The translations under genes were made by a program, and so were the position numbers. From a virus: a stretch of DNA of 38,493 bases. The DNA is taken from IMG/VR virus record IMGVR_UViG_3300013372_003230, positions 1-38,493 of that record; one strand, given 5' to 3'. Positions within the stretch are counted from its first letter, which is position 1; every line of letters begins with the position of its first letter. Shown piece after piece: positions 275 through 21,429 of the stretch. Below the pieces are notes generated by a model. It was not told the origin of the DNA and did no database searches. It was given only the letters and a program-made list of their open reading frames with translations.

Positions 275-301
275 GGGGGCCAGGAAACTGGCCCCCTTTT
301 T
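275..301 (+). terminator. Rho-independent terminator after the gp32-like gene
   Basis: A perfect 9-bp GC-rich stem, GGGGGCCAG (275-283) with CTGGCCCCC (288-296), closes on a GAAA tetraloop (284-287) and is followed by TTTTT (297-301). The U-tract is on the plus strand only. The reverse direction has an A-tract before the stem and no T-run after it, so the element should act mainly on rightward transcription. The stop codon of the opposing leftward gene (300-302) lies in the T-tract. Confidence 0.93.
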
Positions 302-2939
302 ACCAACTATGAACGACTCTATTCTCGCGGCCTCGTCTTTCACCGCTATAGTAACCTTCTGTTGAAGGTTTACTATTCATAACTGAAGTTGAATTGTTGA
401 TTGTGCTTTGACTACTGTTATTAGGAGCAACAACTGTTGCTCCCCCTTTCCCGGAACCTTGCTGTAAAGCAACAGCTTGAGAATCTTGCATAATGCGCTC
501 ACCTGGTGCGGCAGTTTGTACTGGTTGAACCCTTCTACCTTCAACTACTGCAGCTCTTTGTTCTGGGGTTGCTTGGGCTGATGCTTCGGCAACTTTATTA
601 AGACTTTCCATTTTCTGTAGCTGAGCTTCTGCAGTTCTTCTACCAGCAGACCCCTCTGGCATCTTTGCAGCTAGCTCACGCTGCTTCTGAATGTCAGCTG
701 CATTATATGGACCTTGGGCACCTTGGGTTTGGGCAGGAGGTGGAGTTGCTCCACGAACTGCTGCTGCAGCTGTACGGTCAAGAACATTACCTTGTGGGGC
801 TGGTTGTGGACCAGGTACTGCTGGTCTACCTTCAGCTATTGCTAATTTTTGTTCTTCTGTTAATGGACGCCCCTTTGAATCAACAGGATCTCGTACCTGT
901 CGAGCAAAGCGGCGGTCGGCGGCTGCTTGAGACTCCAACCTTTTAGCCTCTTTTTCATTACCAGACTTACGGAAATTGGCCGCTAGCTGTTCTTTCTTAG
1001 CTGCTCTGTCTTCGTATCCTTCAGCCTCTTTTTCAACTTCAGGAGTTACTTGTCTACCAGGGGCAGTTTGCGGCTTACCTGCTGCTAGATCAGGAGCAGG
1101 TTGTCCACCAGTTGGTTTAGTAGCTGGACCTGCTGCTGGCTTACCTGGAGCAGGTTGTCCACCAGCTGGTTTGGCTTCTGTTGACTTACCACTTCCTGGA
1201 GCTGGCCTATTCAGGGCTTCGGCAATCCTAGCAAGTGCTGTTAGAGCATCTCCTGAATCCTCAAAGCCTTCAGCTGCCTCGGCAATCTTCTCTAATCCCT
1301 CAGCTAGCAAATCCACATTGGCCATAAAGTTACTAGAAACTTTGAAGTTGGATAGCTTACCTAGAGCTTCAATTGTTGTTGGCAGCTGATTAAGATCACC
1401 AGCTACTTTACCTAAGTTTGTAAGTTTTGTGAAAATGTCATCTTCACCAAAGCTTAGAATCTTGCCAACAAAATTACCAATGGCACCAATAACGCTTCCT
1501 GCTCCAAGCGCAGCAAGCGCCACACTGATTGCTGTTATACCTGCGGCGGCGCTTATTAATTGTCCACCATCTAAAGTGCTAAGTACTTTTAAAAATTCAC
1601 TGAATGATGGCAGCGCTGCTCCAATAACATTTAGAGCAGCGCCAAACGCTAATAGACCAACGCTCATTACTGTTAGAGCTGCTGAACCAGCTGCGAGTAA
1701 TGGAAGTATTAATCCCATACCAGCAATAGCTGCTGTCAATCCTATAATACCAACAGCAGCTACGGCTAGTGTCTTCCAATCAACTTCCGCAAATTGTTGG
1801 AATGCCTTACCGGCAATAAACAATGCGGCAGACATAATAGTTAAGGCTGCGGCACCCTTAATTAAACTTGTTTTACTTTTATCTAGTAGCTTTGCTACTC
1901 CAACTAGACCAAGTATACCTGCGGCAGCCATACCAAGAGCTTTTAAATCAACTTTTGAAAACTCTTGGAATGCCTTACCGGCAATAAACAATGCACCAGA
2001 TAAAATTACAAGAGCGGCTGCACCTTTCAATACACTTGTTGTACCAAAGCGCGAAATACCTTGAGCTATATTTGTTAATATTGATTTTAAACCCTGTCCA
2101 ATCTTTGTCACAAACTGCTTAATGCCATTGCCCAGCTTGCCAAGAATCTTACTTACTGTATCAGCAATACCAACAAACAAATCTTTAATAGATTTGCCAA
2201 CTTTCCGAGAGCCTTCTAAAAACTTCTCAAGACGGGATGGTCCTTTAGGTTGTTCTGGTGTTCCTGGAGGTCCTGGAGGTCCTGGAGGTGATCCTGGAGG
2301 TCCTGGAGGTGATCCTGGAGGTCCAACTGGTCCAGCTATTCCACCAGTTCCCGGTGCTTCAGGTTTCCTGCCACCAAAACCAAACAAAGACTTGAAGGCT
2401 TTAGAAACTAACGAACCTAAGGTCTGTCTAAGATTTTTAGATACTAAAAGAAAGATTGCAGCAACTGTTCCTAGTATGCCAGCAGTACTTTCAAGGAGTC
2501 CAAGCGCACTTGCTAAGCCTAGAACAAATCCACCTATTACTGGTATTAAGACTTTTTCAAAAAATTCAAAAATTCTTTCTAGAGCTGATTTTTGTTTAGG
2601 TGGTTCTTTTTCTTTTGGCTTATCCCTTTGCTTTTTTTCTCTTTCTTCCTCAACTTTCATTGCTTCTTCATCAGCGCCCAGTTTGGGTTTCAACATCATG
2701 TTATCTTCAAGTACTTTTTTTGTTTCCTTCAATGAAGTAACCTGGGCATCCATCTTGGCAGCTATGTTATAGAGATTATCTGCCGATTGAGCAGTAAAAA
2801 CTAACATTTGCTGTAGAGTATCTTCCTGGCTTACTTTATCCAGCTTCTTCAATACGTCAACATGCATAAGGTCAAGTTTAGCAATAACCTCAACGCCTTG
2901 CTTTTCTAATTGTGTGTTGTCTAATTTAGGTAAGGCCAT
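300..2939 (-). CDS. Candidate tail tape-measure / gp29-like protein (879 aa)
   Basis: This large hydrophobic protein is the last gene of the leftward tail cluster. Residues 1-115 look helical and charged, ending in a Lys/Glu-rich segment. They are followed by hydrophobic segments near 130-165, a Gly/Pro collagen-like tract near 203-230, amphipathic helices, and hydrophobic helices over about 305-510 that include a tandem 56-residue duplication (ALFIAGKAFQ occurs twice). The last 290 residues are Ala/Gln/Pro/Lys-rich and probably disordered. Tape-measure proteins are long, helical, carry membrane-active segments and lie just after the frameshifted chaperone gene, as here. T4 gp29 has 590 aa; at about 0.15 nm per residue 879 aa would fit a tail of roughly 130 nm. 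The start ATG overlaps the stop of the 51-like frame (TAATG). The assignment rests on position and composition, not on recognised sequence similarity. Confidence 0.6.
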   Translation of the reverse strand: MALPKLDNTQLEKQGVEVIAKLDLMHVDVLKKLDKVSQEDTLQQMLVFTAQSADNLYNIAAKMDAQVTSLKETKKVLEDNMMLKPKLGADEEAMKVEEEREKKQRDKPKEKEPPKQKSALERIFEFFEKVLIPVIGGFVLGLASALGLLESTAGILGTVAAIFLLVSKNLRQTLGSLVSKAFKSLFGFGGRKPEAPGTGGIAGPVGPPGSPPGPPGSPPGPPGPPGTPEQPKGPSRLEKFLEGSRKVGKSIKDLFVGIADTVSKILGKLGNGIKQFVTKIGQGLKSILTNIAQGISRFGTTSVLKGAAALVILSGALFIAGKAFQEFSKVDLKALGMAAAGILGLVGVAKLLDKSKTSLIKGAAALTIMSAALFIAGKAFQQFAEVDWKTLAVAAVGIIGLTAAIAGMGLILPLLAAGSAALTVMSVGLLAFGAALNVIGAALPSFSEFLKVLSTLDGGQLISAAAGITAISVALAALGAGSVIGAIGNFVGKILSFGEDDIFTKLTNLGKVAGDLNQLPTTIEALGKLSNFKVSSNFMANVDLLAEGLEKIAEAAEGFEDSGDALTALARIAEALNRPAPGSGKSTEAKPAGGQPAPGKPAAGPATKPTGGQPAPDLAAGKPQTAPGRQVTPEVEKEAEGYEDRAAKKEQLAANFRKSGNEKEAKRLESQAAADRRFARQVRDPVDSKGRPLTEEQKLAIAEGRPAVPGPQPAPQGNVLDRTAAAAVRGATPPPAQTQGAQGPYNAADIQKQRELAAKMPEGSAGRRTAEAQLQKMESLNKVAEASAQATPEQRAAVVEGRRVQPVQTAAPGERIMQDSQAVALQQGSGKGGATVVAPNNSSQSTINNSTSVMNSKPSTEGYYSGERRGRENRVVHSW
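1797..1994 (-). repeat. Tandem 168-bp (56-aa) duplication inside the candidate tape-measure gene
   Basis: An exact 30-base string occurs at 1797-1826 and again at 1965-1994, a spacing of 168 bp. On the coding strand both copies encode ALFIAGKAFQ. The protein around them repeats as KGAAAL..(S)ALFIAGKAFQ.F..VD.K.L..AA.GI.GL. The rest of the unit has diverged, so this looks like an old in-frame duplication with one conserved block. Confidence 0.85.
2263..2322 (-). repeat. Nonamer repeats encoding a collagen-like Gly-Pro-Pro tract
   Basis: Six copies of CCTGGAGGT (plus strand) start at 2263, 2272, 2281, 2293, 2302 and 2314, with GAT triplets between copies 3/4 and 5/6. On the coding strand they read as GPP, GSPP, GPP, GSPP, GPP, GPP. 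Gly is therefore not strictly every third residue: an extra Pro at each GSPP breaks the collagen register. The tract connects the first hydrophobic block to the rest of the candidate tape-measure protein. Confidence 0.85.
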
Positions 2940-3825
2940 TATACGTCTTTATATCCTGCTTTCCGTAATCGTTCTTTCTCTTTCTCGAGATAATCAATCA
3001 ATAAGGCAACATAAATGTCACGTTCAAATGGCAAAAGTTCCTCTACATCACTAATAGAATATTTATGATGTTGACATAATGCAAAAACCGTTTGGTAGTA
3101 ATTGGCTAGGTTGCTATACCCAGCCAGTACTAGAAAAAATTCTCGAGGCCCTCAATCTTTAGGTCTTTTACAACCTGGTCCTTTGTTACATACTTTGCAT
3201 TATAGACAAGTTTTGGCATTGCTTCAAAGAACTTCTGAATCTGTTCAACATGGGTTTTGTTGAGAGATAAAATAAAGTCATCCATTTCTTGTGATGTGTA
3301 ATTAGCTGTTTCAAATACTTCTTCACCTTCATAGATCTGATGGATACAGCCTCTTAGAATTGCAAAGGTTGCATTCATCTGGTCAGATTCTTCAATTTTG
3401 GATAAAAGGCTAAATGTTGGAAAATGTAAAATCACCCCAACAGTTTCTGTTAGCTTAATGTTGTTAGGAATATTATCTTTTTTCTGAATTTCTACCTTAT
3501 CTAAATTGATCTCTACTTCATAATTTTGTTCGTCTTCAGGATCCTTAACAATGACCTTAGAAATATTAGATACAGACTTTGATCTTAGGCAAAGAAAGAA
3601 GTATTCTAAGTCAACTGCAGCCATACTATCAACATCAATTGGATCAATAGCGCAGTTGTTGATTATTTGCTTATAGACATTAATAATGTCCTTCCTCTCG
3701 CCAGACTCCTGAGCCATAAGGAGAAGCTTCTCCTCTCTGACCGTAAATGGTCTATAGTGAACAACCTTACCGTTAGATGGTTGAGTTAGTTGAAAGATTG
3801 GTTGGTTAATTTTTGGTAGTGGCAT
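2939..3825 (-). CDS. gp26-gp51 fusion made by -1 ribosomal frameshifting (about 295 aa)
   Basis: After the gp26 stop, a second leftward frame stays open to TAA at 2939-2941. It encodes 64 residues beginning LVLAGYSNLANYYQ, with the motif VEELLPFERDIYVALL and the end KERLRKAGYKDV. It has no ATG or GTG. Its first TTG falls inside ELLPFERD, so it cannot be expressed alone. The frame is -1 relative to gp26, and the two frames join exactly at a T TTT TTC heptamer. The predicted product is 231 residues of gp26 plus 64. T4 genes 26 and 51 are adjacent, separate hub-assembly genes. Lambda G/GT shows the same logic: a tail chaperone extended by a -1 shift just before the tape measure. The 51 label rests on position and the PFERD motif. 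Expression is inferred. Confidence 0.82.
3104..3125 (-). promoter_or_regulatory. Frameshift-stimulating stem-loop
   Basis: On the minus strand GGCTGGGT (3125-3118) can pair with ACCTAGCC (3111-3104) around a 6-nt ATAGCA loop. The 8-bp stem contains one G-U pair. It begins 7 nt after the slippery heptamer (spacer TAGTACT, which includes the gp26 stop), inside the 5-9 nt spacing typical of -1 frameshift stimulators. I did not find a convincing pseudoknot partner by eye. Confidence 0.75.
3130..3825 (-). CDS. gp26: Baseplate hub assembly protein gp26-like (tail assembly chaperone)
   Basis: The 231-aa protein resembles the T4 baseplate protein family that includes gp26 (208 aa in T4). Visible family features are the N-terminal PFTVREEKLLLMAQES block and, after it, the region NCAIDPIDVDSMAAVDLEYF with FLCLRSKSVS. 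gp26 helps build the central hub before the tape measure and tube are added. The start ATG (3823-3825) has a good Shine-Dalgarno sequence, GAGGTGA (minus strand 3835-3829). The gene lies 13 bases downstream of the gp54-like gene. Its last codons contain the frameshift heptamer, so a fraction of ribosomes should continue into the 51-like extension. Confidence 0.85.
   Translation of the reverse strand: MPLPKINQPIFQLTQPSNGKVVHYRPFTVREEKLLLMAQESGERKDIINVYKQIINNCAIDPIDVDSMAAVDLEYFFLCLRSKSVSNISKVIVKDPEDEQNYEVEINLDKVEIQKKDNIPNNIKLTETVGVILHFPTFSLLSKIEESDQMNATFAILRGCIHQIYEGEEVFETANYTSQEMDDFILSLNKTHVEQIQKFFEAMPKLVYNAKYVTKDQVVKDLKIEGLENFF
3133..3139 (-). promoter_or_regulatory. Slippery heptamer T TTT TTC for -1 frameshifting
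   Basis: In the gp26 frame the end reads GAG AAT TTT TTC TAG. The heptamer T TTT TTC fits X XXY YYZ and is in the correct phase. After a -1 slip the ribosome reads TTT TTT CTA GTA and enters the 51-like frame, bypassing the TAG. Confidence 0.82.
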
Positions 3826-5524: not shown

Positions 5525-5951
5525 TGATCTCTCGTTCAGTTAGGATCTGAAACTTCCATTTCCTCTCGTTACAAAACTCTTGACAGGCCTTCCATTTGGC
5601 GTTGTTAATGCCCCAGTTCTTAACATCATTGATATATCTTGGTGTTATTCTACTCTTTTTCTCAGGCGGCTTTGTTTGAGAAGATGGTTTAATCTCTATA
5701 ACAATTCTATCAACATTACCATTCTTATCTCGTCTCTTCACACTAAAGTCAGGAAAGTATCTATGGTACCTACCGTCAATTGGCGATAGATATGGTACAA
5801 AGAACTCCTCACTTGACCACTCTAATACATCTGGGTGTGTATCTAAATAGTTCATCAATTTAAGTTCCAGAGATGAACGATAAATAACATTGGTGGGGTC
5901 ACCATTGTATTTTTGTGGATTTTTAACTTTATAACGCCCCTTATAACTCAT
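5508..5951 (-). CDS. gp4: Head completion protein gp4-like
   Basis: The protein matches T4 gp4 (150 aa) closely in layout: MSYKGRYKVKNPQKYNGDPT, YRSSLELKLMNYLD, WSSEEFFVPY, RYFPDFSV, IVIEIKPSSQTKPP, and NNAKWKACQEFCNERKWKFQILTE. gp4 works on the packaged head before tail joining. Its fold resembles PD-(D/E)xK nucleases; the Asp in FPDF and the Glu and Lys in EIK are the expected active-site-type residues. I chose the ATG at 5951-5949 because T4 gp4 begins at the equivalent point. A longer reading from 5984 would add 11 unrelated residues and run into the promoter box. No Shine-Dalgarno sequence precedes this ATG, and a late promoter box ends only 5 bases upstream. Confidence 0.92.
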   Translation of the reverse strand: MSYKGRYKVKNPQKYNGDPTNVIYRSSLELKLMNYLDTHPDVLEWSSEEFFVPYLSPIDGRYHRYFPDFSVKRRDKNGNVDRIVIEIKPSSQTKPPEKKSRITPRYINDVKNWGINNAKWKACQEFCNERKWKFQILTEREINGYQY

Positions 5952-5956
5952 ATAGG

Positions 5957-5964
5957 TATTTATA
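5957..5964 (-). promoter_or_regulatory. T4-type late promoter box (TATAAATA) for the leftward tail cluster
   Basis: The minus strand reads TATAAATACC just before the gp4 ATG. By T4 spacing (box at about -13 to -6) transcription would start at about 5951, the A of the gp4 start codon. The box overlaps the first base of the divergent gp48 ATG. Confidence 0.7.
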
Positions 5965-7361
5965 TGGCAAAAGGAACAAACCATCCATCTGTTGCAATAA
6001 GTAAAAACAAGAATTCTAGATCATTAGCCACAGATGTATTTCCTGCTGGCGATAATAAACTTAATATGGGTATGTTATTTAGGTTTGTAAAGTATGAAGT
6101 TAATTATGGCCAAGGCACGAAGGCTATCCAAACAAGGAATATTACAGGTGGCCACGTTGCACTTCCTCTTCCAGATGGATTATCAGATAAACTAGATGTC
6201 AACTATGACATCACTGATTTAGGTTCCGCAGCATTTGCCGCAAATGCAGGAAAGGATACCGTTAATGCCTTCAAAAATGAGGGCGCTATATCTGCTTTAG
6301 GTACGTTGGGCAGTGCTGCAGCGGGCGCCACAGAGTATTTGGCAAGATCGGCACTGAATGCAGTGGGTAGTACTGGGGCAATTGCAAGCCTAGAAACTGG
6401 AAATGTTCCTAATCCATTTACTACAGCTGTTTTTAAAAATGTTACTCTAAAAACTCATACACTAAACTGGACATTGACCCCAGAGACTCCTGAAGACTCT
6501 ATGGCAATTAAAAAAATTGTCAACCTCTTTAGAATGCATGCTCTACCAGGCGTCACACCAGGCAAACCATTCTTGACAATGCCTAATGAAGTTCAGGTTG
6601 TCTTTTTTGGCACAAATGCTCTATACGGATTTGGCAGATGTGTTATTACTAATGTGACAGTAAATTATAATCCAAGAAGTGGTCCAGCGTTTTATAAAAA
6701 TGTGGGACAAGGATTAATTAGTGCACCTCAGCAAGTAGAACTTCAAGTTCAATTAAATGAAGTTGAGGCACTAACAAAAGCCTCATTTGATCCAACTGTT
6801 GGTGGCGATGGTTCAACAGCAGTATCTCAATCCCTTGGTTCAACTACTACTTCTCCCCAGCAGGCAGAAAGACCTGGTAATAAACTAGTTAATCAAAACG
6901 AAAAACAAGATACGCAACATCAAGCAGCTGTTGCAGCAGCAACAACAGAATCAGAAGTACAAGATGAGACTGATAAATTCTTGGCTGGCGCAGATACCAC
7001 AACAAACATAAACAACCCAGCTAAAACATTTGCAGCCGGCAGTGCTTCAGAAAGTTCAGGAGAGGGTAGTGAACAGGTAACACCTGCTACAACTGCCCAA
7101 AGCTCAAATACGGCGGTTAGACAAACATCGTTTAAGGGTACAATTAATGGACCCTTTCAAGCTGTTTATGCTACTGAAATTCAAGCAGAACAAAAAAGAC
7201 TTGGAGATGACCCAAGCTTGCCTGCAAATAAGAGACCATCTCCAGCTAAAAGAAGGATCATTGAAGCACAAGCTAAACAGAATATTGGAGCTAAGCTCAT
7301 TAACGGCACATTGGCGCCAAGAGGCAATGTCACTGTTTCAAATGTAGAACCAGGCGGCTAG
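5964..7361 (+). CDS. gp48: Baseplate tail-tube cap protein gp48-like (465 aa)
   Basis: The protein has a gp48-type core: the N-terminal MGMLFRFVKYEVNY, an LPLPDGLSDKLDVNYD segment, an Ala/Gly-rich helical middle, and a C-terminal tube-like domain with NPFTTAVFKNVTLKTHTLNW, LTPETPEDSMAIKKIVNLFR and VVFFGTNALYGFGRCVITNV. gp48 caps the hub and, with gp54, forms the platform from which the tube grows. T4 gp48 is 364 aa; the extra length is a Gln/Thr/Ala-rich tail after about residue 290 that looks disordered. I start it at ATG 5964, which has AGG seven bases upstream; an in-frame TTG at 5913 lies inside gp4 and is less likely. The gene is divergent from gp4, with 12 bp between the start codons. 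Confidence 0.82.
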   Translation: MAKGTNHPSVAISKNKNSRSLATDVFPAGDNKLNMGMLFRFVKYEVNYGQGTKAIQTRNITGGHVALPLPDGLSDKLDVNYDITDLGSAAFAANAGKDTVNAFKNEGAISALGTLGSAAAGATEYLARSALNAVGSTGAIASLETGNVPNPFTTAVFKNVTLKTHTLNWTLTPETPEDSMAIKKIVNLFRMHALPGVTPGKPFLTMPNEVQVVFFGTNALYGFGRCVITNVTVNYNPRSGPAFYKNVGQGLISAPQQVELQVQLNEVEALTKASFDPTVGGDGSTAVSQSLGSTTTSPQQAERPGNKLVNQNEKQDTQHQAAVAAATTESEVQDETDKFLAGADTTTNINNPAKTFAAGSASESSGEGSEQVTPATTAQSSNTAVRQTSFKGTINGPFQAVYATEIQAEQKRLGDDPSLPANKRPSPAKRRIIEAQAKQNIGAKLINGTLAPRGNVTVSNVEPGG

Positions 7362-13421: not shown

Positions 13422-15418
13422 TGAAAGAACTAGAAAAGTTTATATCTCCATTCATTGCTAGTCAATTTCCCTCTATCTATAAAGAAGAGGGTCCTCTATT
13501 CATTGCATTTGTAAAAGCATATTTTGAGTGGCTTGAATCAGAAAACCAAGTTATTTACGATTCTAGAAGATTACTAGAATATAGAGATATTGATAAAACA
13601 GTGGATGTCTTTATCAATAATTTTAAAAAGAAATATATGTTCCCTATCCCAGAGGATATTGCTGGTGATAAGGTTTTACTACAAAAGCACATTAAAGAAG
13701 TATACGGGTCTAAGGGTACAGAGCGTGGTTTAAAACTTTTGTTCCAGCTTTTGTTTGCTGACAACATTAGCGTTTATAAGCCAGGTGACGATGTCTTTAG
13801 ATTATCGGATGGTGATTGGAATAGAGACATTTATCTTGAAGTATCCTTTAAACCTTTCAATAGTTTATTTGTTGGTGAGTTTATTAGAGGCCGTATATCT
13901 GGCGCAAGGGCCTATGTTGAAAGCTTTCAGACAAAATTTGTTAATAATAAAAACATAAACATTTTTTATCTAACGGATGTTGTTGGCAACTTTAGACATG
14001 ATGAAGTTGTTCTAATTGATGAATCCAAATTACCAGAAGGCGAGGTTCCATCCGTAACAGCAATTAATTCACCAAAGATTATTGGTTCAATGACAGAAGT
14101 TGATGTTTCAAATAGAAGCTCACCATTTGGTTATACAGTTGGTGACATACTAGAAGTTCAGGGTAAAGGTTCTCGTGGTAAGGTAGTTGTAACAAAATTA
14201 AAAGAACTTGATGGTACAATTTCCTTCAATCTAGAAGATGGTGGCTCAGGTTATACTGTTAATAATACTGTTTTCTTAATCAAAGGTCCTGTTACGGGAG
14301 TCGTTGTAGAAGATGGTGGTACTGGATATTCAAATAGTGATTTTATAATTTTCTCTAACGGAACAGCTAATGCAACCGCTAACCTTGTGACAGATGGGTC
14401 GGGTGTAATTTTAAATAATACGGCCGGCGGCGAAACAAATTTTACAATAACAAATGGTGGTAACGGATTCTTAACAACAAATGCATTTACTGTAACAGTC
14501 ACAATAGCTAACTCAACTGGTGGGTCTTCGGCTGGCTCTAGTGCAAACCTTGTACCAACAATTGCTGGTGGTGGCGACCAGGCAGGCCTGAGAATTGGCG
14601 CTTTGACCAATGTTAAATTTCTTTTTTCATCTGCTGTAAAAATTAATACAATTGGCAAGACACTAAATTATATTGTCACTGCTAATAATGTTGATAATAC
14701 ACTTATTGGTCAATTATCATATCCAACTGGAAATGGTTATGGTCTTGCTTCAAATGTCGCAGCAGGATTTGATACAATCCTCAGGGATGCCCTGAGCTAT
14801 CAAAACTATGAAGTTGGTACAATATCTAAAATCTTTACAACCAATCCTGGCCAAGATTATACAACCAATGTACAAATTACAGTCACAGATACTGTAATAG
14901 GACTAATGGAATTACCTGATAGAGAACATCCAGCTGGCCGTGGCGAGCAAGGTAATGGGCAACTTGGCAACAATGCCGTTGTAACTGGCGTTGCTGGGTT
15001 TGGCGATGATGCTTTGGGAGAGGTGAAAGTTATTGACTCAGGCTTAGGTTATGAACAAAGAGAAGAAGCTCTCCTTGTTTCATTATCTAACACAAACCTA
15101 ATAACATCTGGTACTGTATTACTAACAAGACAGGGTCAGGGTGAGGGTAATTTCAAATCAACTCGTGGTTTCTTAAACTCAGACAAGTTCATTCATGATA
15201 GTTTTTATTATCAAGACTATTCTTATGAAGTAAGATCATCAATTGTATTCGACAAATATAGTGACCTTCTAAGAAAGCTTTGGCATCCAGCCGGGGTCGA
15301 AAAGTTTGGTAGAGTTCTTGTAAGTAATGAAGTCACCTCTGCAACACCAGACGTTACACAGCAAGCATATATAGGGGATGGGTCAACGACAACGTTTGCT
15401 ATCCCGGGTGGAGCATGA
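13421..15418 (+). CDS. gp7: Baseplate wedge protein gp7-like (665 aa), ending in half of a fibre beta-domain
   Basis: The N-terminal 130 residues correspond to the C-terminal helical part of T4 gp7: FPSIYKEEGPLFIAFVKAYF, then LLEYRDIDKTVDVFINNF, YGSKGTERGLKLLFQLLFA and YKPGDD. The segment SDLLRKLWHPAGVEKFGRVL near residues 620-640 matches the T4 FVHPVGFGF region. Between them are beta-rich inserts, including GGSGY and GGTGYSNSD motifs. T4 gp7 is 1032 aa; its N-terminal domains have no equivalent here. The last 18 residues (YIGDGSTTTFAIPGGA and nearby) are the first half of a common phage fibre domain, completed in the next frame. gp7 binds the gp6 dimer in the wedge core. Confidence 0.85.
   Translation: MKELEKFISPFIASQFPSIYKEEGPLFIAFVKAYFEWLESENQVIYDSRRLLEYRDIDKTVDVFINNFKKKYMFPIPEDIAGDKVLLQKHIKEVYGSKGTERGLKLLFQLLFADNISVYKPGDDVFRLSDGDWNRDIYLEVSFKPFNSLFVGEFIRGRISGARAYVESFQTKFVNNKNINIFYLTDVVGNFRHDEVVLIDESKLPEGEVPSVTAINSPKIIGSMTEVDVSNRSSPFGYTVGDILEVQGKGSRGKVVVTKLKELDGTISFNLEDGGSGYTVNNTVFLIKGPVTGVVVEDGGTGYSNSDFIIFSNGTANATANLVTDGSGVILNNTAGGETNFTITNGGNGFLTTNAFTVTVTIANSTGGSSAGSSANLVPTIAGGGDQAGLRIGALTNVKFLFSSAVKINTIGKTLNYIVTANNVDNTLIGQLSYPTGNGYGLASNVAAGFDTILRDALSYQNYEVGTISKIFTTNPGQDYTTNVQITVTDTVIGLMELPDREHPAGRGEQGNGQLGNNAVVTGVAGFGDDALGEVKVIDSGLGYEQREEALLVSLSNTNLITSGTVLLTRQGQGEGNFKSTRGFLNSDKFIHDSFYYQDYSYEVRSSIVFDKYSDLLRKLWHPAGVEKFGRVLVSNEVTSATPDVTQQAYIGDGSTTTFAIPGGA
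15403..15418 (+). other. gp7 / giant-protein junction: ATGA overlap with an upstream CCCGGGT heptamer
   Basis: gp7 ends GGA GCA TGA (stop 15416-15418) and the giant gene's ATG is 15415-15417, a -1 frame relation. Six bases before the TGA lies C CCG GGT (15403-15409), which formally fits X XXY YYZ in the gp7 phase. A -1 slip there would read through in the giant-gene frame. I know of no efficient frameshift at this heptamer and see no strong downstream stem, so stop-start reinitiation is the simpler reading. Confidence 0.5.
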
Positions 15419-18400
15419 GTACACTAACAGTTAAAGTAAATGGAGTATTGCAGGTACTAGGTACCGATTATACCATTTCTGGTGGTAGTGTTGTATTCAC
15501 TAAAGCCCCTGGTGCCGATGCCTCTGTTGAGATTAGAAAAGAAATACCACGAAGTATTCTTGAGACTAGTTTCAAGATTGAACAAATTAGACTAACAGAG
15601 CTAACTACTGCCTATAGCACTCAGACCATTGTATCTTCCACATTCAACACAAGTATTGGAACAGGTACAACGACAACGTTTGTTACTGCATACTCTACTT
15701 CTAAATCTACCGATACAACTAAAACAACATCCAAGAGTACGACAACAGCGTACATTTCAATATTTGACACAGTGATTGGTACATCCAAGAACACCACATC
15801 TCATTATGTTACAGCTTATCAAACAGTATTTAATACAGTATCTGTGTTTGATACAGTTATTGTTACATCCTATGCCACGACAAAAACAACATCAACAGTA
15901 TTTGAAACAACTGGTGTAACAAACAAATCAACAACCACTGTTTATAACACAACAATAACAACAATCTTTGATAGTAATAGAACAACTACAACAGTTTATA
16001 GTACTGCTTATACAACAATTTACGCTACTGATACTGCTTACAATACAAATAGAAATACTGTCTATGAGACAAATATAGCTACCTCAACAAGTAAGAGTAC
16101 TGATACATCTAAGACAACTTCTACTGTTTTTGATACATTCTATGCCTCATCGTATGGAACAACAACTACATTTGATACATCAAAAAATACAAACCTAGCT
16201 ACTTCTAAATCAACCGATACAGTTATTAACACATCAAAGGCAACAAACACAACAACTACGTTTGCTACAATTTTTGATACTGCTGGTTCAACAACTAGAA
16301 GCACAACATCTCTTTATGTCACTGTATTTAATACATCTAAGTCAACAGCTACTGTCTTTAGTACAGCATTTGATACTTTCTTTAATACAAACAAATTAAC
16401 ATCAACTAGTAAGTCAACAACTTCTGTATTCAATACTTCAACTACATTTGTTACAACATTTGATACTGGTTACGATACTAGTAAGTCAACCACATCGTTG
16501 TTTAATACGACAACAACATTTGACACAGCATTTGCAACATCAAAAGCAACAACAACAGCATTTGAAACAAGTGCTGCGACTCAAACTACTGTATCACAAA
16601 ATACTGCCAGAAATACAACTACAATATTTGCTACAGCTACAAGTGTTATAACAACAACTGCGTTTAATACAACAACCACATTTAACACAACGTATGCAAC
16701 TAACTTTGCAACGACAACAGCATTTGATACAAATGTTTTGACAGAAACAAATCGTGCAACAAGTAGAGCAACTGAAAAAACAATTGGTACAAGTAGAGCC
16801 ACAGCAACCTCAAGAGCAACAACCACTGTATTTGATACAACGACAACGTTTGATACAACAACATCATCTTTAAGGAATACTGTCTTTATTACAAGTTTTA
16901 ACAATCCAACTTTTTTTGGAACAAATTACGACACAACTTTTGATACTACAACTACATTTGCAACATCGTCAGCTCAAACAATACTTTCTACAGTTGATTT
17001 TTTAAATTGCAGTGCAAGAAATACACAATATTATGCTTTTTTCAACACAACTCGAGCAACAGCTACATCTAGAGGAACTGGCGTAGAAACATTCCGACAG
17101 ACAGCTACTAGCATAAACACATTTCGCACTACTGCTACCTCTAAATCAACAGCCACGTCTAGAGCCACTGCCACATCCAATTCTACTACAACTGCATTCA
17201 ACACAACAACTGCATTTAATACAACATATCAAACTACAACAACGTTTGTTACTGGATTCCAGACAACTACTATATTTGGTACCTCTAAAGGTACCACAAC
17301 AGTCTTTGATACTGCAAGAAGTACTGCAGCAGTCACTGGTACAAGTAGAACTACCACATCTGTATTTGATACAGCAACATCAGCCGTAACATCTACAACT
17401 TTTGTTACTACCTTTTTATCAGCTACAACAACTGTATTTGTAACATCTAAGGGTACAACAACTGTATTTGATACAGCAAGAAGTACTAGTTCTTCCACTG
17501 GCACAAGTAAATCAACCACAACTGCATATAACACATTAGTTGCTACAGCTCTATCAACAAGTAAGGCAACTGCTACAAGCGTTGCTACAACAACTGTATT
17601 TGATACAACTACTACATTTGATACTAACTCTGGTACAGCTAGAAATACATCAAAGGCTACAGATACTACGTTTGAAACCAACTTTGGTACATCCAAGGCA
17701 ACAGACACAACATTTAGTACTCTATTTAATACAGCTGCTGCAACATCAAAAAGTACTGCAACAACAACAGTGTTTGGTACTGCATATGCAACAACCACTT
17801 CATATGATACTGTTTATGGTACAGTATTTGCAACAAACAAAACAACGGATACTTCTACTGCAACATCTAAGTCAACATCTAAGTCAACAACCTCTGTGTT
17901 TCAGACAACAACAGTCTTTAATACAGATACTACATTTGAAACAAATAGAAACACAATATTTGATACTGTAATAGCAACAGACACTTCCCGCGATACTGTA
18001 ATCCTAACTTCAAAGGGTACCTCAACATTATTTGAAACTGCTATTGATACTGTATACGAAACAAATAAGTCAACAACGTCTGTATTCAATACAGTATTCA
18101 ATACAGCAAAAAATACTACAAGTGTATTTGATACAATAATTGATACAGCGTATGCAACCAACATTGCAACAGCTACATCAAGATTTACTACAAAAGATAC
18201 AGAGATTGTAACATCTACAGCTTATGAGACTGGTTATGCAACCCAGATCTTAACATCCAAGAGTACCTCAACTGTATTTGATACTGTATATACAACAACT
18301 ACCGTATTTGATACAGGACCAAATACAACAAGAAATACAACTACGCAATCTGTCTATAGTACATCATCATCAACATTAAGGGGTACAGACACATCTATCC

Positions 18401-21400
18401 TAACAGAGTATAGAATTGTTGTTACTCAAACATTGTTTAGCACTAATATTGAAACAACATACGAAACGATTGCTGGTGTTCTAACAACTATTGCAACAGA
18501 TGTATTAACTAATAAAACTACTGATACAACATTTGCTCTTGAAACTAGAAATACTTTAAGAGATACAGCATTCCAAACAACTAACCCAACGTTAATTGCA
18601 ACTACAACATTATTCCAAACATCTTATAATACAAACCAAGTTACGCGTTATGTAACATTCAATACAGCGTTTGAAACAAGTAAAAATACATCCACTGTAT
18701 TTGGTAAGGCAACGACAACCGTATTCAACACAACAAGCACATTTAATACATTAACAGTTGTATCATCCTCAACTTCTCGCAATACATTAGTAACTTCTTC
18801 AACTGTATTTGACACAAGTAGGTCTACAATATTTGCTACTGGTACATCTAGAACTACAACATCATCATACCAGACAAATACAACAACAATATTTGCTACT
18901 GGATATAATACTAGTAAGTCAACAACATCAGTATTTGTAACAGCATTCTTAACTGTGTCAACATTTGACACAAGCCAGACTACATCTAGAAATACAACTC
19001 TGTCAAAGGGTACAGAGATCATTACATTCTTTGGTACATCACAATTAACATTTAAACCAACAAGTACGTCACGCGGCACGGTTTATGTTAGTGACTTCAC
19101 TACTGTATCTCGCACAACAGAATTTAATACTTCAACAACACAATCAACAGCGTTTGATACAAGAAGAGGTACAAACCAGACAACTGTGTTTGATAGCTCA
19201 ACTTCATTCCTAACTAGCTTCGCCACAACGCTAAACAAAACAACTACAACAATTACTAATAAGAGCACTCTGAGTGCCTATAACACATTAGTTGACACAT
19301 CAAAAGTTACTGACATAGCAACATCTAGAGATACTACAACTGCATTCGACACTTTGACGGCGCGCAGTACATCATATGAAACTACTAGGACAACACAAAG
19401 CACTCTAGCAACAACATTTGTTACAATGTTTAATTCTACATTTGCCACATCAAAGGCAACGTCTACAAGTAAGAGTACCGATACATCTACATCATCTGTC
19501 ATTACAACATCTTATGACACATCAAAGAGTAGTGTTAATAATACTAGTACCACATATCAAACAGTATTCAATACAACAACATCATTCCAGACCGACTACG
19601 GCGCTGGTACAATGGTGGCGACCTCTAAGTCCACTAGTACATCTGCTCTGATAACAAAATTGACAGGAACATTAACATCAACCGTTACTGCCAAGCTGAC
19701 AACAATTGATACAACTGAGAGCACCGAAACCCAATACTTAATGTCAAGTAGTTTTGGTACAGAGACTGTGTTTGAAACTGTGGTGGGTACTGCATATGAT
19801 ACAACTACTACATTTAATACACAAACAATATTCCAAACATCTTCTGTATTTAACACAACAACATCATTCCAGACCGACTCCGGTGCTGGTACATTGATTG
19901 GCACATCTAAGACAACTGCAACTGGCATATCAACAAATACAAATAAGACAACTGCAACTTCAAGAGTTACAGTAACAGCAAGTGGAACATACTATGTAAC
20001 ATCTAAGACAACAGCTTCAATGTATGATACTACAAAAAATACGGTGGCTGGTCAAACCATTGCTCTAACAAGTACTTCTAAGAATACTACAACGGTATAT
20101 TTGTCTCAATATCAATCAACAATTAATACTACAACAGCATATCTATCTTCTTACTCAACTGTTATTGCTACAAGCAGACAGACCCAAGCTCTAACAACAT
20201 TTGGTACATCTAAGACAACAGAAACAATATTCCAGACAGCTGCTGGTGGTGGTACATTATTTAACACAACAAAGAATACTACAACAGCATTTGACACTGT
20301 CTACCTAATCACTCAGTCTGTTGCCTCAACAGCTACCACATTCCAGACTGATTCAGGTGCTGGCACATTAAAGAATACTTCTCAAAATACAATTACAACT
20401 TACACAAGATACCTGAGTGGTAAGCAAACATCTACTGTGTTTACGACAGCATTTGCCACAGATCCATTTGTAACAACAACCTTTGGTACATCTAGAAGCA
20501 CACTGACTGTTTATCCAACTGTATTCACTCAATTTGGTACCTCTAAAGATACGACAACAACATACCAGACAGATTCAGGTGCTGGTACAATGAAAAATAC
20601 AACACAAAGTACAACTACTGCATTTGATACAGTATATGCAACTGGTGCATTGACCCAGAAGTCAACTACTACAGCATTTGATACAGTTTATAGCACTGGT
20701 CTTGCAACAACAAGAGATACTGCTACATTCTTAACTACATCAACTGCATATGTTACAGAGACAGCCAAAATTACTGGCTCAAGCAAGATTACACAGTTTG
20801 CCACTACAACAACCATCAACACAGATACAGCAAGAGGTACCTCAACTACATTCCAGACTGATTCTGGCGCAGGTACATTAATTAACACATCAAGAAACAC
20901 ATTCACTGGTACTATTACATCATTCAATACTACCACTGTAACTATAAGTGATATCTTAACAAGCAAGTCAACAGCTACGCAGACTAACCAGGGTACGTTG
21001 ATTAATACATCAACAGCTACATCATATAGTACGGAAACACAGTATACCACATCAAGTGGTGCAACGGTATTTTTAACATCTGTTAATACAACAACTGTAA
21101 TTGACTTTAGTATTAGAAATACTCAATATCAGACTCTCACATCCGTAGAAACTGGAACAGTGTTTGAATCAGGTGACAGACAAACAACACGATTAACACA
21201 ATTACTAACAAATACCGAAACCTCTCAGTTGGTAATTGATACAACTAGAACAACATCTGTTGCTACAACATTTAATACATCTACGGCTTACTTGACAGAT
21301 TCTGGAGCTGGTACAATGGTTGCTACATCTAAGTCAACCTCAACATCTAGAATAACAGATAAGGCAACTGACACGAATTATGATACAGCCATTCAAACAA

Positions 21401-21429
21401 CATATGAAACTGTTATTATAAATAACTAG
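15415..21429 (+). CDS. Giant Thr-rich repeat fibre-like protein (2004 aa)
   Basis: Residues 1-45 (VKVNGVLQVLGTDYTISGG, then VVFTKAPGADASVEI) are the second half of a fibre beta-domain. A short linker follows. From about residue 65 to the end the protein is almost entirely short repeats of the type FDTS, KSTT, TVFD, TTTT. Thr plus an aromatic, Ile, Lys or Arg occupy every second residue, with large residues 4 or 6 apart; 27 of 78 residues in positions 65-142 are Thr. This two-residue alternation implies a long beta structure with one Thr/aromatic face. From about residue 1391 a DSGAGT motif recurs. I see no C-terminal domain, signal peptide or membrane segment and only one Cys motif (FLNCS). 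It lies between gp7 and gp8, adjacent genes in T4, so a wedge-attached fibre is the best inference. Confidence 0.88.
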   Translation: MSTLTVKVNGVLQVLGTDYTISGGSVVFTKAPGADASVEIRKEIPRSILETSFKIEQIRLTELTTAYSTQTIVSSTFNTSIGTGTTTTFVTAYSTSKSTDTTKTTSKSTTTAYISIFDTVIGTSKNTTSHYVTAYQTVFNTVSVFDTVIVTSYATTKTTSTVFETTGVTNKSTTTVYNTTITTIFDSNRTTTTVYSTAYTTIYATDTAYNTNRNTVYETNIATSTSKSTDTSKTTSTVFDTFYASSYGTTTTFDTSKNTNLATSKSTDTVINTSKATNTTTTFATIFDTAGSTTRSTTSLYVTVFNTSKSTATVFSTAFDTFFNTNKLTSTSKSTTSVFNTSTTFVTTFDTGYDTSKSTTSLFNTTTTFDTAFATSKATTTAFETSAATQTTVSQNTARNTTTIFATATSVITTTAFNTTTTFNTTYATNFATTTAFDTNVLTETNRATSRATEKTIGTSRATATSRATTTVFDTTTTFDTTTSSLRNTVFITSFNNPTFFGTNYDTTFDTTTTFATSSAQTILSTVDFLNCSARNTQYYAFFNTTRATATSRGTGVETFRQTATSINTFRTTATSKSTATSRATATSNSTTTAFNTTTAFNTTYQTTTTFVTGFQTTTIFGTSKGTTTVFDTARSTAAVTGTSRTTTSVFDTATSAVTSTTFVTTFLSATTTVFVTSKGTTTVFDTARSTSSSTGTSKSTTTAYNTLVATALSTSKATATSVATTTVFDTTTTFDTNSGTARNTSKATDTTFETNFGTSKATDTTFSTLFNTAAATSKSTATTTVFGTAYATTTSYDTVYGTVFATNKTTDTSTATSKSTSKSTTSVFQTTTVFNTDTTFETNRNTIFDTVIATDTSRDTVILTSKGTSTLFETAIDTVYETNKSTTSVFNTVFNTAKNTTSVFDTIIDTAYATNIATATSRFTTKDTEIVTSTAYETGYATQILTSKSTSTVFDTVYTTTTVFDTGPNTTRNTTTQSVYSTSSSTLRGTDTSILTEYRIVVTQTLFSTNIETTYETIAGVLTTIATDVLTNKTTDTTFALETRNTLRDTAFQTTNPTLIATTTLFQTSYNTNQVTRYVTFNTAFETSKNTSTVFGKATTTVFNTTSTFNTLTVVSSSTSRNTLVTSSTVFDTSRSTIFATGTSRTTTSSYQTNTTTIFATGYNTSKSTTSVFVTAFLTVSTFDTSQTTSRNTTLSKGTEIITFFGTSQLTFKPTSTSRGTVYVSDFTTVSRTTEFNTSTTQSTAFDTRRGTNQTTVFDSSTSFLTSFATTLNKTTTTITNKSTLSAYNTLVDTSKVTDIATSRDTTTAFDTLTARSTSYETTRTTQSTLATTFVTMFNSTFATSKATSTSKSTDTSTSSVITTSYDTSKSSVNNTSTTYQTVFNTTTSFQTDYGAGTMVATSKSTSTSALITKLTGTLTSTVTAKLTTIDTTESTETQYLMSSSFGTETVFETVVGTAYDTTTTFNTQTIFQTSSVFNTTTSFQTDSGAGTLIGTSKTTATGISTNTNKTTATSRVTVTASGTYYVTSKTTASMYDTTKNTVAGQTIALTSTSKNTTTVYLSQYQSTINTTTAYLSSYSTVIATSRQTQALTTFGTSKTTETIFQTAAGGGTLFNTTKNTTTAFDTVYLITQSVASTATTFQTDSGAGTLKNTSQNTITTYTRYLSGKQTSTVFTTAFATDPFVTTTFGTSRSTLTVYPTVFTQFGTSKDTTTTYQTDSGAGTMKNTTQSTTTAFDTVYATGALTQKSTTTAFDTVYSTGLATTRDTATFLTTSTAYVTETAKITGSSKITQFATTTTINTDTARGTSTTFQTDSGAGTLINTSRNTFTGTITSFNTTTVTISDILTSKSTATQTNQGTLINTSTATSYSTETQYTTSSGATVFLTSVNTTTVIDFSIRNTQYQTLTSVETGTVFESGDRQTTRLTQLLTNTETSQLVIDTTRTTSVATTFNTSTAYLTDSGAGTMVATSKSTSTSRITDKATDTNYDTAIQTTYETVIINN
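19585..21330 (+). repeat. Seven DSGAGT-type motif repeats in the C-terminal part of the giant protein
   Basis: A motif with consensus FQTDSGAGT, L or M, two residues, then TS occurs at about 19585, 19867, 20230 (degenerate: FQTAAGGGT), 20341, 20563, 20851 and 21292 (YLTDSGAGT). Spacings are irregular (about 110-440 bp). It is absent from the first two thirds of the gene and is more conserved than the surrounding Thr repeats. The Gly-rich segment probably forms a turn or loop. Confidence 0.82.
21417..21424 (+). promoter_or_regulatory. T4-type late promoter box before gp8, inside the end of the giant gene
   Basis: TATAAATA overlaps the last codons of the giant protein, whose stop is 21427-21429. 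Predicted initiation near 21430 gives a leader of about 22 nt carrying AGGATTTAGGA, a good ribosome binding site for gp8 at 21452. Confidence 0.78.

Follow-up and report, generated by a model that had tools for sequence, protein, structure and literature searches.

Vladimirov, Gautam and Davidson (Virology 2022, 566:9-15) reportedly identified the tail assembly chaperone (TAC) genes of T4-like phages, which we infer from the matching two-gene layout to be genes 26 and 51. The T4 proteins gp26 and gp51 are listed as hub assembly chaperones (PMC3004832). In passages that cite the 2022 study, the PRFect paper states that some T4-like phages carry short and fused long TAC genes instead of frameshifting (PMC10885494), and the 2025 paper on phage Adele refers to poly-T slippery sequences within the TAC-N genes of T4-like phages (PMC12846349). 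A passage of a 2016 review describes the tail chaperone frameshift as conserved "except T4" (PMC5009743). Here we analyzed the gp26 locus of an uncultured phage, in a stretch of 38,493 nt (IMG/VR record IMGVR_UViG_3300013372_003230, positions 1 to 38,493; hereafter the window). The locus very probably contains a -1 programmed frameshift by which a single gene would give a TAC pair, a short form (TAC-N) and a long form (TAC-NC). This reading draws directly on the slippery site, its phase and conservation, selection in two frames, the order of the genes, a TAC-like fold, and homology to the gp26 and gp51 of T4.

The gp26 gene and its -1 frame extension

The gp26 gene lies on the reverse strand, and its zero frame (3130-3825) encodes a 231-residue protein of the T4 gp26 family, which matches PF12322 (T4_baseplate) with an E value of 2.4e-48 and 165.1 bits against a curated cut-off of 24.5, and phrog_150 (baseplate hub) with an E value of 3.7e-54. 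Its final codons are AAT TTT TTC TAG. The heptamer T TTT TTC (3139-3133) sits in the X XXY YYZ phase of the zero frame, as expected of a frameshift site, and the TAG stop (3132-3130) follows immediately. A -1 slip here would lead into an extension (2939-3133, reverse strand) of 64 sense codons (3133-2942) and a TAA stop (2941-2939). Translated from the last base of the heptamer, its 64 residues read LVLAGYSNLANYYQTVFALCQHHKYSISDVEELLPFERDIYVALLIDYLEKEKERLRKAGYKDV. The extension contains neither ATG nor GTG, and its earliest TTG falls within the motif VEELLPFER. It is a gp51 homologue, matching phrog_634 (baseplate hub assembly catalyst) with an E value of 1.9e-22 over profile positions 56-114 of 121; searches of the extension against Pfam and NCBIfam gave no significant model.

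The predicted fused product has 295 residues, and its junction peptide begins ENFFLVLAGYSN. The TAA stop shares its last A with the ATG (2939) that starts the gene for an 879-residue tail length tape measure protein (300-2939, reverse strand; phrog_4372, E value 1.1e-9). The gp26 gene is thus directly upstream of the tape-measure gene, which is the gene order of TACs, and at the sequence level it provides the short and long forms with a common N-terminal part. The original prediction, made from the DNA of the window alone, had described this same layout, with AAT TTT TTC TAG, a 64-codon frame free of ATG and GTG, and the TAATG overlap, and our reading of the sequence agrees. It had also called the extension 51-like, which the profile search bears out.

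Conservation of the slippery heptamer

The genes of the window hold 44 in-frame canonical heptamers and, apart from the gp26 site, none opens more than 37 codons in the -1 frame within its gene. Scanning of viral contigs and phage records yielded 118 usable loci with 94 distinct junctions, and clustering of gp26 at 80% identity gave 85 clusters. The heptamer was present at the end of gp26 in 84 of these (T TTT TTC in 47, T TTT TTT in 36 and T TTT TTA in one), and in all 84 the gp51-like frame was the -1 frame and was unbroken. Because other heptamers open at most 37 codons in the -1 frame, and because this site recurs in nearly every gp26 cluster, the gp26 heptamer is not a chance occurrence. 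The conserved set includes the Synechococcus phages S-PM2 and S-WAM1, Prochlorococcus phage P-HM2, Stenotrophomonas phage DLP6, Caulobacter phage Cr30, Rhizobium phage IC12, the Vibrio phages ValKK3 and D484, and Aeromonas phage Aswh_1; later additions were Sinorhizobium phage phiM9 (T TTT TTG), phage phiN3 and Aeromonas phage 65. Among annotated cultured relatives, the soil phage DLP6 is nearest by identity (44%), and the marine origin that the original prediction assumed is not shown.

The conservation goes beyond protein constraint. The first Phe codon of the heptamer was TTT in 84 of 84 clusters versus 67% elsewhere (nominal log10 P -14.5), and it invariably followed a T even though the preceding residue varies (nominal log10 P -18.7). 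Differences within the extension were distributed over the -1-frame codon positions as 312:152:684, the pattern expected of a translated frame; by this measure, the -1 frame is under purifying selection.

The same comparison bears on two other origins for the junction. Homopolymers are error-prone in general, and a sequencing or assembly error could have split one in-frame gene, as the original prediction had cautioned. However, L002, L003 and L042, which are separate assemblies, all carry an identical T6C run, and cultured phages of several families have this site as well. These independent sequences refute an error in the T run, whose probability we regard as negligible. Alternatively, the fused product could result from transcriptional rather than ribosomal slippage on the T run, and T6-T7 runs do occur in every cluster with the heptamer. 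Yet about half of the sites have only T6 followed by C, which is short for polymerase slippage, every run is in X XXY YYZ phase, and downstream folding is enriched, as described below. We hold this explanation to be extremely unlikely.

Start codons and annotation at the junction

It could also be argued that gp51 is a separate small protein, translated by termination-reinitiation just past the gp26 stop, and that the T run is coincidental coding. Separate gp51 genes are annotated in S-PM2, DLP6, ValKK3, D484 and phiM9; in phiM9 and the Vibrio phages, the annotated gp26 and gp51 open reading frames (ORFs) share one base, at the gp26 stop. However, 36 of the 84 clusters, the window included, offer no ATG, GTG or TTG from 12 codons before to 14 codons after the slip, and reinitiation is therefore not the common mechanism. 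Moreover, the heptamer is conserved at the codon level with or without an available start, and the gp51 of T4 is already a full-length fusion (see below). As an account of this locus, reinitiation is very unlikely; in some phages it could, judging from the available start codons, yield free gp51 in addition to a frameshift product.

Public records treat the extension inconsistently. S-PM2 and DLP6 list it as a gene of its own, and it is missing from S-WAM1 (L031, 3493-3682); in the P-HM2 record (L041, 3789-3881), gp51 is a 31-residue stub (93 bases including the stop, so 30 codons), and in that of Aeromonas phage 65 (L132, 2316-2396), it is a 27-codon ORF. Stub, missing or short gp51 annotations are as expected of a missed frameshift, and many public phage records misannotate gp51 as absent, as such a stub or as a separate ORF.

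Candidate stimulatory elements

Downstream of the heptamer lies a stem-loop (3103-3126, reverse strand) with a 6-nt loop. Its stem comprises 8 bp at 3125-3118/3111-3104 with a 7-nt spacer, just as the original prediction had it, or 9 bp (3126-3118 with 3111-3103) if the outer U-A pair is counted. The resulting 6-7 nt spacer is within the 5-9 nt range of a stimulatory structure; in many distant relatives, such a structure is weak or absent. The 59-nt fold has an energy of -18.3 kcal/mol (z -3.07), equaled by 3 of 200 shuffles. Over the 84 clusters, the mean folding energy of the 42 nt downstream was -6.8 kcal/mol versus -4.2 kcal/mol in control windows taken from those loci (p 2.7e-7). Counting separately two stem registers that are one base apart, we found paired changes in the near clade at three of nine pairs among three sequences and at four of nine among seven, with lower values for slid controls. 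The original prediction had proposed that the heptamer and the stem be compared in relatives: the former is held by all but one of the gp26 clusters, and stems are enriched overall and covary in the near clade.

A Shine-Dalgarno-like GAGGG (3149-3153, reverse strand), 9 nt 5′ of the heptamer, resembles the dnaX stimulator. The Glu codon of the E-G motif upstream of the heptamer is GAG in 25 of 41 clusters, compared with 560 of 1898 Glu codons elsewhere in gp26, which suggests but does not prove a role for GAGGG in stimulating slippage.

Predicted fold of gp26

AlphaFold models of the window gp26 and of a divergent gp26 (L111) had pLDDT values of 85.7 and 91.9, respectively. In both models, residues 1-95 were closest to 3fgx (Z 7.8 and 7.9) and to HK97 gp13, 2ob9 (Z 7.5 in each); YqbN, 3klu (Z 7.0), was among the top matches of the window model only. 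All three structures, 3fgx (rbstp2171), 2ob9 and 3klu, are described as phage tail assembly chaperones (PMC9603447). These top matches covered 83-85 residues with Z scores of 7.0-7.9 and root-mean-square deviations of 4.0-4.4 Å, and the next-ranked matches scored 5.0-5.3 and 4.1-4.7, placing the models with the TAC fold. This likeness between models and structures supports, but does not prove, the identification of gp26 as a TAC.

Several observations weigh against a frameshifting TAC gene at this locus. The fold matches are middling, in that all Z scores are below 8 and Foldseek, although ranking 2ob9 first, assigns it an E value of only 0.18. In hhalign, the profile of the fused products gave no match to the single sequences of lambda G, P2 E or Mu 41; TACs are highly diverged. 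A universal stem was not found across the clusters, strong stems being confined to some clades and absent in many relatives. The P values for codon choice are nominal and carry no correction for relatedness. Finally, an ATG lies within 10 codons after the slip in 19 of the 84 clusters. The original prediction had named relatives with their own start codon for the 51-like gene, or without the heptamer, as evidence against a frameshift; relatives of the first kind thus exist, but they keep the heptamer.

Short and long products as counterparts of T4 genes 26 and 51

In T4, genes 26 and 51 are divergently transcribed, an arrangement shared by Aeromonas phage 31 and a Krischvirus; in RB43, the two genes are adjacent and in the same direction. 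The relation between T4 gp26 and gp51 is weak by BLAST and is resolved only by profiles. T4 gp51 matches PF12322 over residues 1-201 (E value 3.9e-52) and then phrog_634. We aligned these proteins to a reference profile of 294 positions built from the 84 fused products. T4 gp26 aligned at 11-235, and the gp26 proteins of T4 and the Krischvirus both stop at the slip point, 235. The gp51 proteins of Aeromonas phage 31, the Krischvirus and T4 instead cross the slip point, aligning at 20-286, 22-289 and 22-278, respectively; shuffled controls scored far lower. Because gp26 aligns up to the slip point and gp51 runs past it, these alignments indicate that T4 holds the short form (gp26) and the long form (gp51) as two genes.

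In an unrooted tree of the shared domain, which has long branches, the T-even 26 and T-even 51 proteins formed two clades that join each other (split support 98/93) and stand apart from the lineages with a single gene. The frameshift form is retained in other Straboviridae, namely Schizotequatrovirus and Ishigurovirus. This suggests that T4 is a derived exception, whose two hub chaperones match the two products of the single gene of its relatives.

A variant without the heptamer in Ackermannviridae

Seven Ackermannviridae or related phages (L129, L130, L134-L136, L128 and L037) lack the heptamer, and the -1 frame is open downstream of their gp26. This frame matches the gp51-extension profile in five of the seven, with E values of 8.1e-10 for 2050H1 and 2.4e-7 to 1.2e-6 for the others, and weakly in VAP7 and K397. 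In Maynard, XDRKpn-1 and 2050H1, no start codon occurs ahead of mid-extension, and some of the extensions are unannotated. The junction common to five of the seven is [A/G]TT TTC AT, the ATTTTCAT junction of Ackermannviridae. This [A/G]TT TTC may be a slippery motif shorter than the heptamer, as GTTTTT is in Adele.

It is possible, although we lean slightly the other way, that single-gene TAC frameshifting is ancestral in the T4 superfamily, including Ackermannviridae with a slip on [A/G]TT TTC, and that in the T-even phages a single event of gene duplication replaced recoding with two genes. This is put forward because start-less, gp51-related -1 extensions occur in Ackermannviridae and because the T-even 26 and 51 clades are joined in the unrooted tree. 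Because this tree has no root and its branches are long, we base the direction of change mainly on taxonomy. The variant is the freshest lead of this analysis.

Neighboring genes

Upstream of gp26 are relatives of the T4-type tail tube protein, gp2 and gp4, followed by divergent gp48, gp53, gp5, gp25 and gp6 relatives, the gene numbers being our reading of family names. By gene content, this set and the gp26 locus form a T4-type baseplate module. At 5913-5984, divergent ORF calls overlap, one gp4-type (5984-5508, reverse strand) and one gp48-type from a TTG at 5913 (forward strand); the true gp48 start is probably an ATG further inside the latter. The tape measure protein contains a collagen-like Gly-Pro-Pro repeat (2239-2324), with tandem repeats of period 9 and 21. 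Between the baseplate and fibre genes, a repetitive Thr/Ser-rich protein of 2004 residues (15415-21429), with 18-nt and 54-nt repeat units, gave no PHROG match.

Proposed mechanism and comparison with known systems

We infer the occurrence and rate of slippage in cells, and what the chaperones bind, as follows. Most ribosomes would terminate at TAG and release the 231-residue gp26, TAC-N, and a minority would slip -1 on T TTT TTC, with help from the stem-loop and perhaps from the GAGGG upstream, to produce the 295-residue TAC-NC with its gp51-type C-terminal domain. By analogy with lambda gpG and gpGT (PMC5009743), many copies of the short form would coat the neighboring tape measure protein through the common N-terminal part, and a few copies of the long form would recruit tail tube or hub subunits through the extension.

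The original prediction had likened the locus to lambda G/GT, and the gene order and the fold of gp26 support this. The two systems nevertheless differ in slippery and protein sequences, with no detectable sequence similarity and with 231 residues in gp26 versus 140 in lambda. P2 E/E+E' likewise uses a -1 frameshift, on a T TTT TTG-type run, and its extended ORF ends at the start of the tape-measure gene T; P2 gpE, of 91 residues, is sequence-unrelated to gp26 at the single-sequence sensitivity of hhalign. In Adele and the Vandenendeviridae/Andersonviridae, the TAC gene again precedes the tape measure gene and has a conserved -1 frameshift that annotation overlooked, but the motif is GTTTTT and the phage families are different (PMC12846349).

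The T4-like TAC genes of Vladimirov et al. have the same role and belong to the same phage group as the window locus. Whether this had been described was left open by the original prediction; in the passages that cite their work, T4-like TAC identity and poly-T slippery sites are already part of the literature. The window locus is well supported, but the frameshift principle in T4-like phages is already published, and uniting TACs with the hub proteins of T4, though correct, is not novel. With the main idea published in 2022, the practical gain is one of annotation and range, together with a clean set to test. The two-gene T4-like cases have separate short and long genes, whereas the window phage has both forms from one gene. 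In T4, where gp26 corresponds to the short product and gp51 to the long one, the genes are separate and divergent, and a frameshift is not needed.
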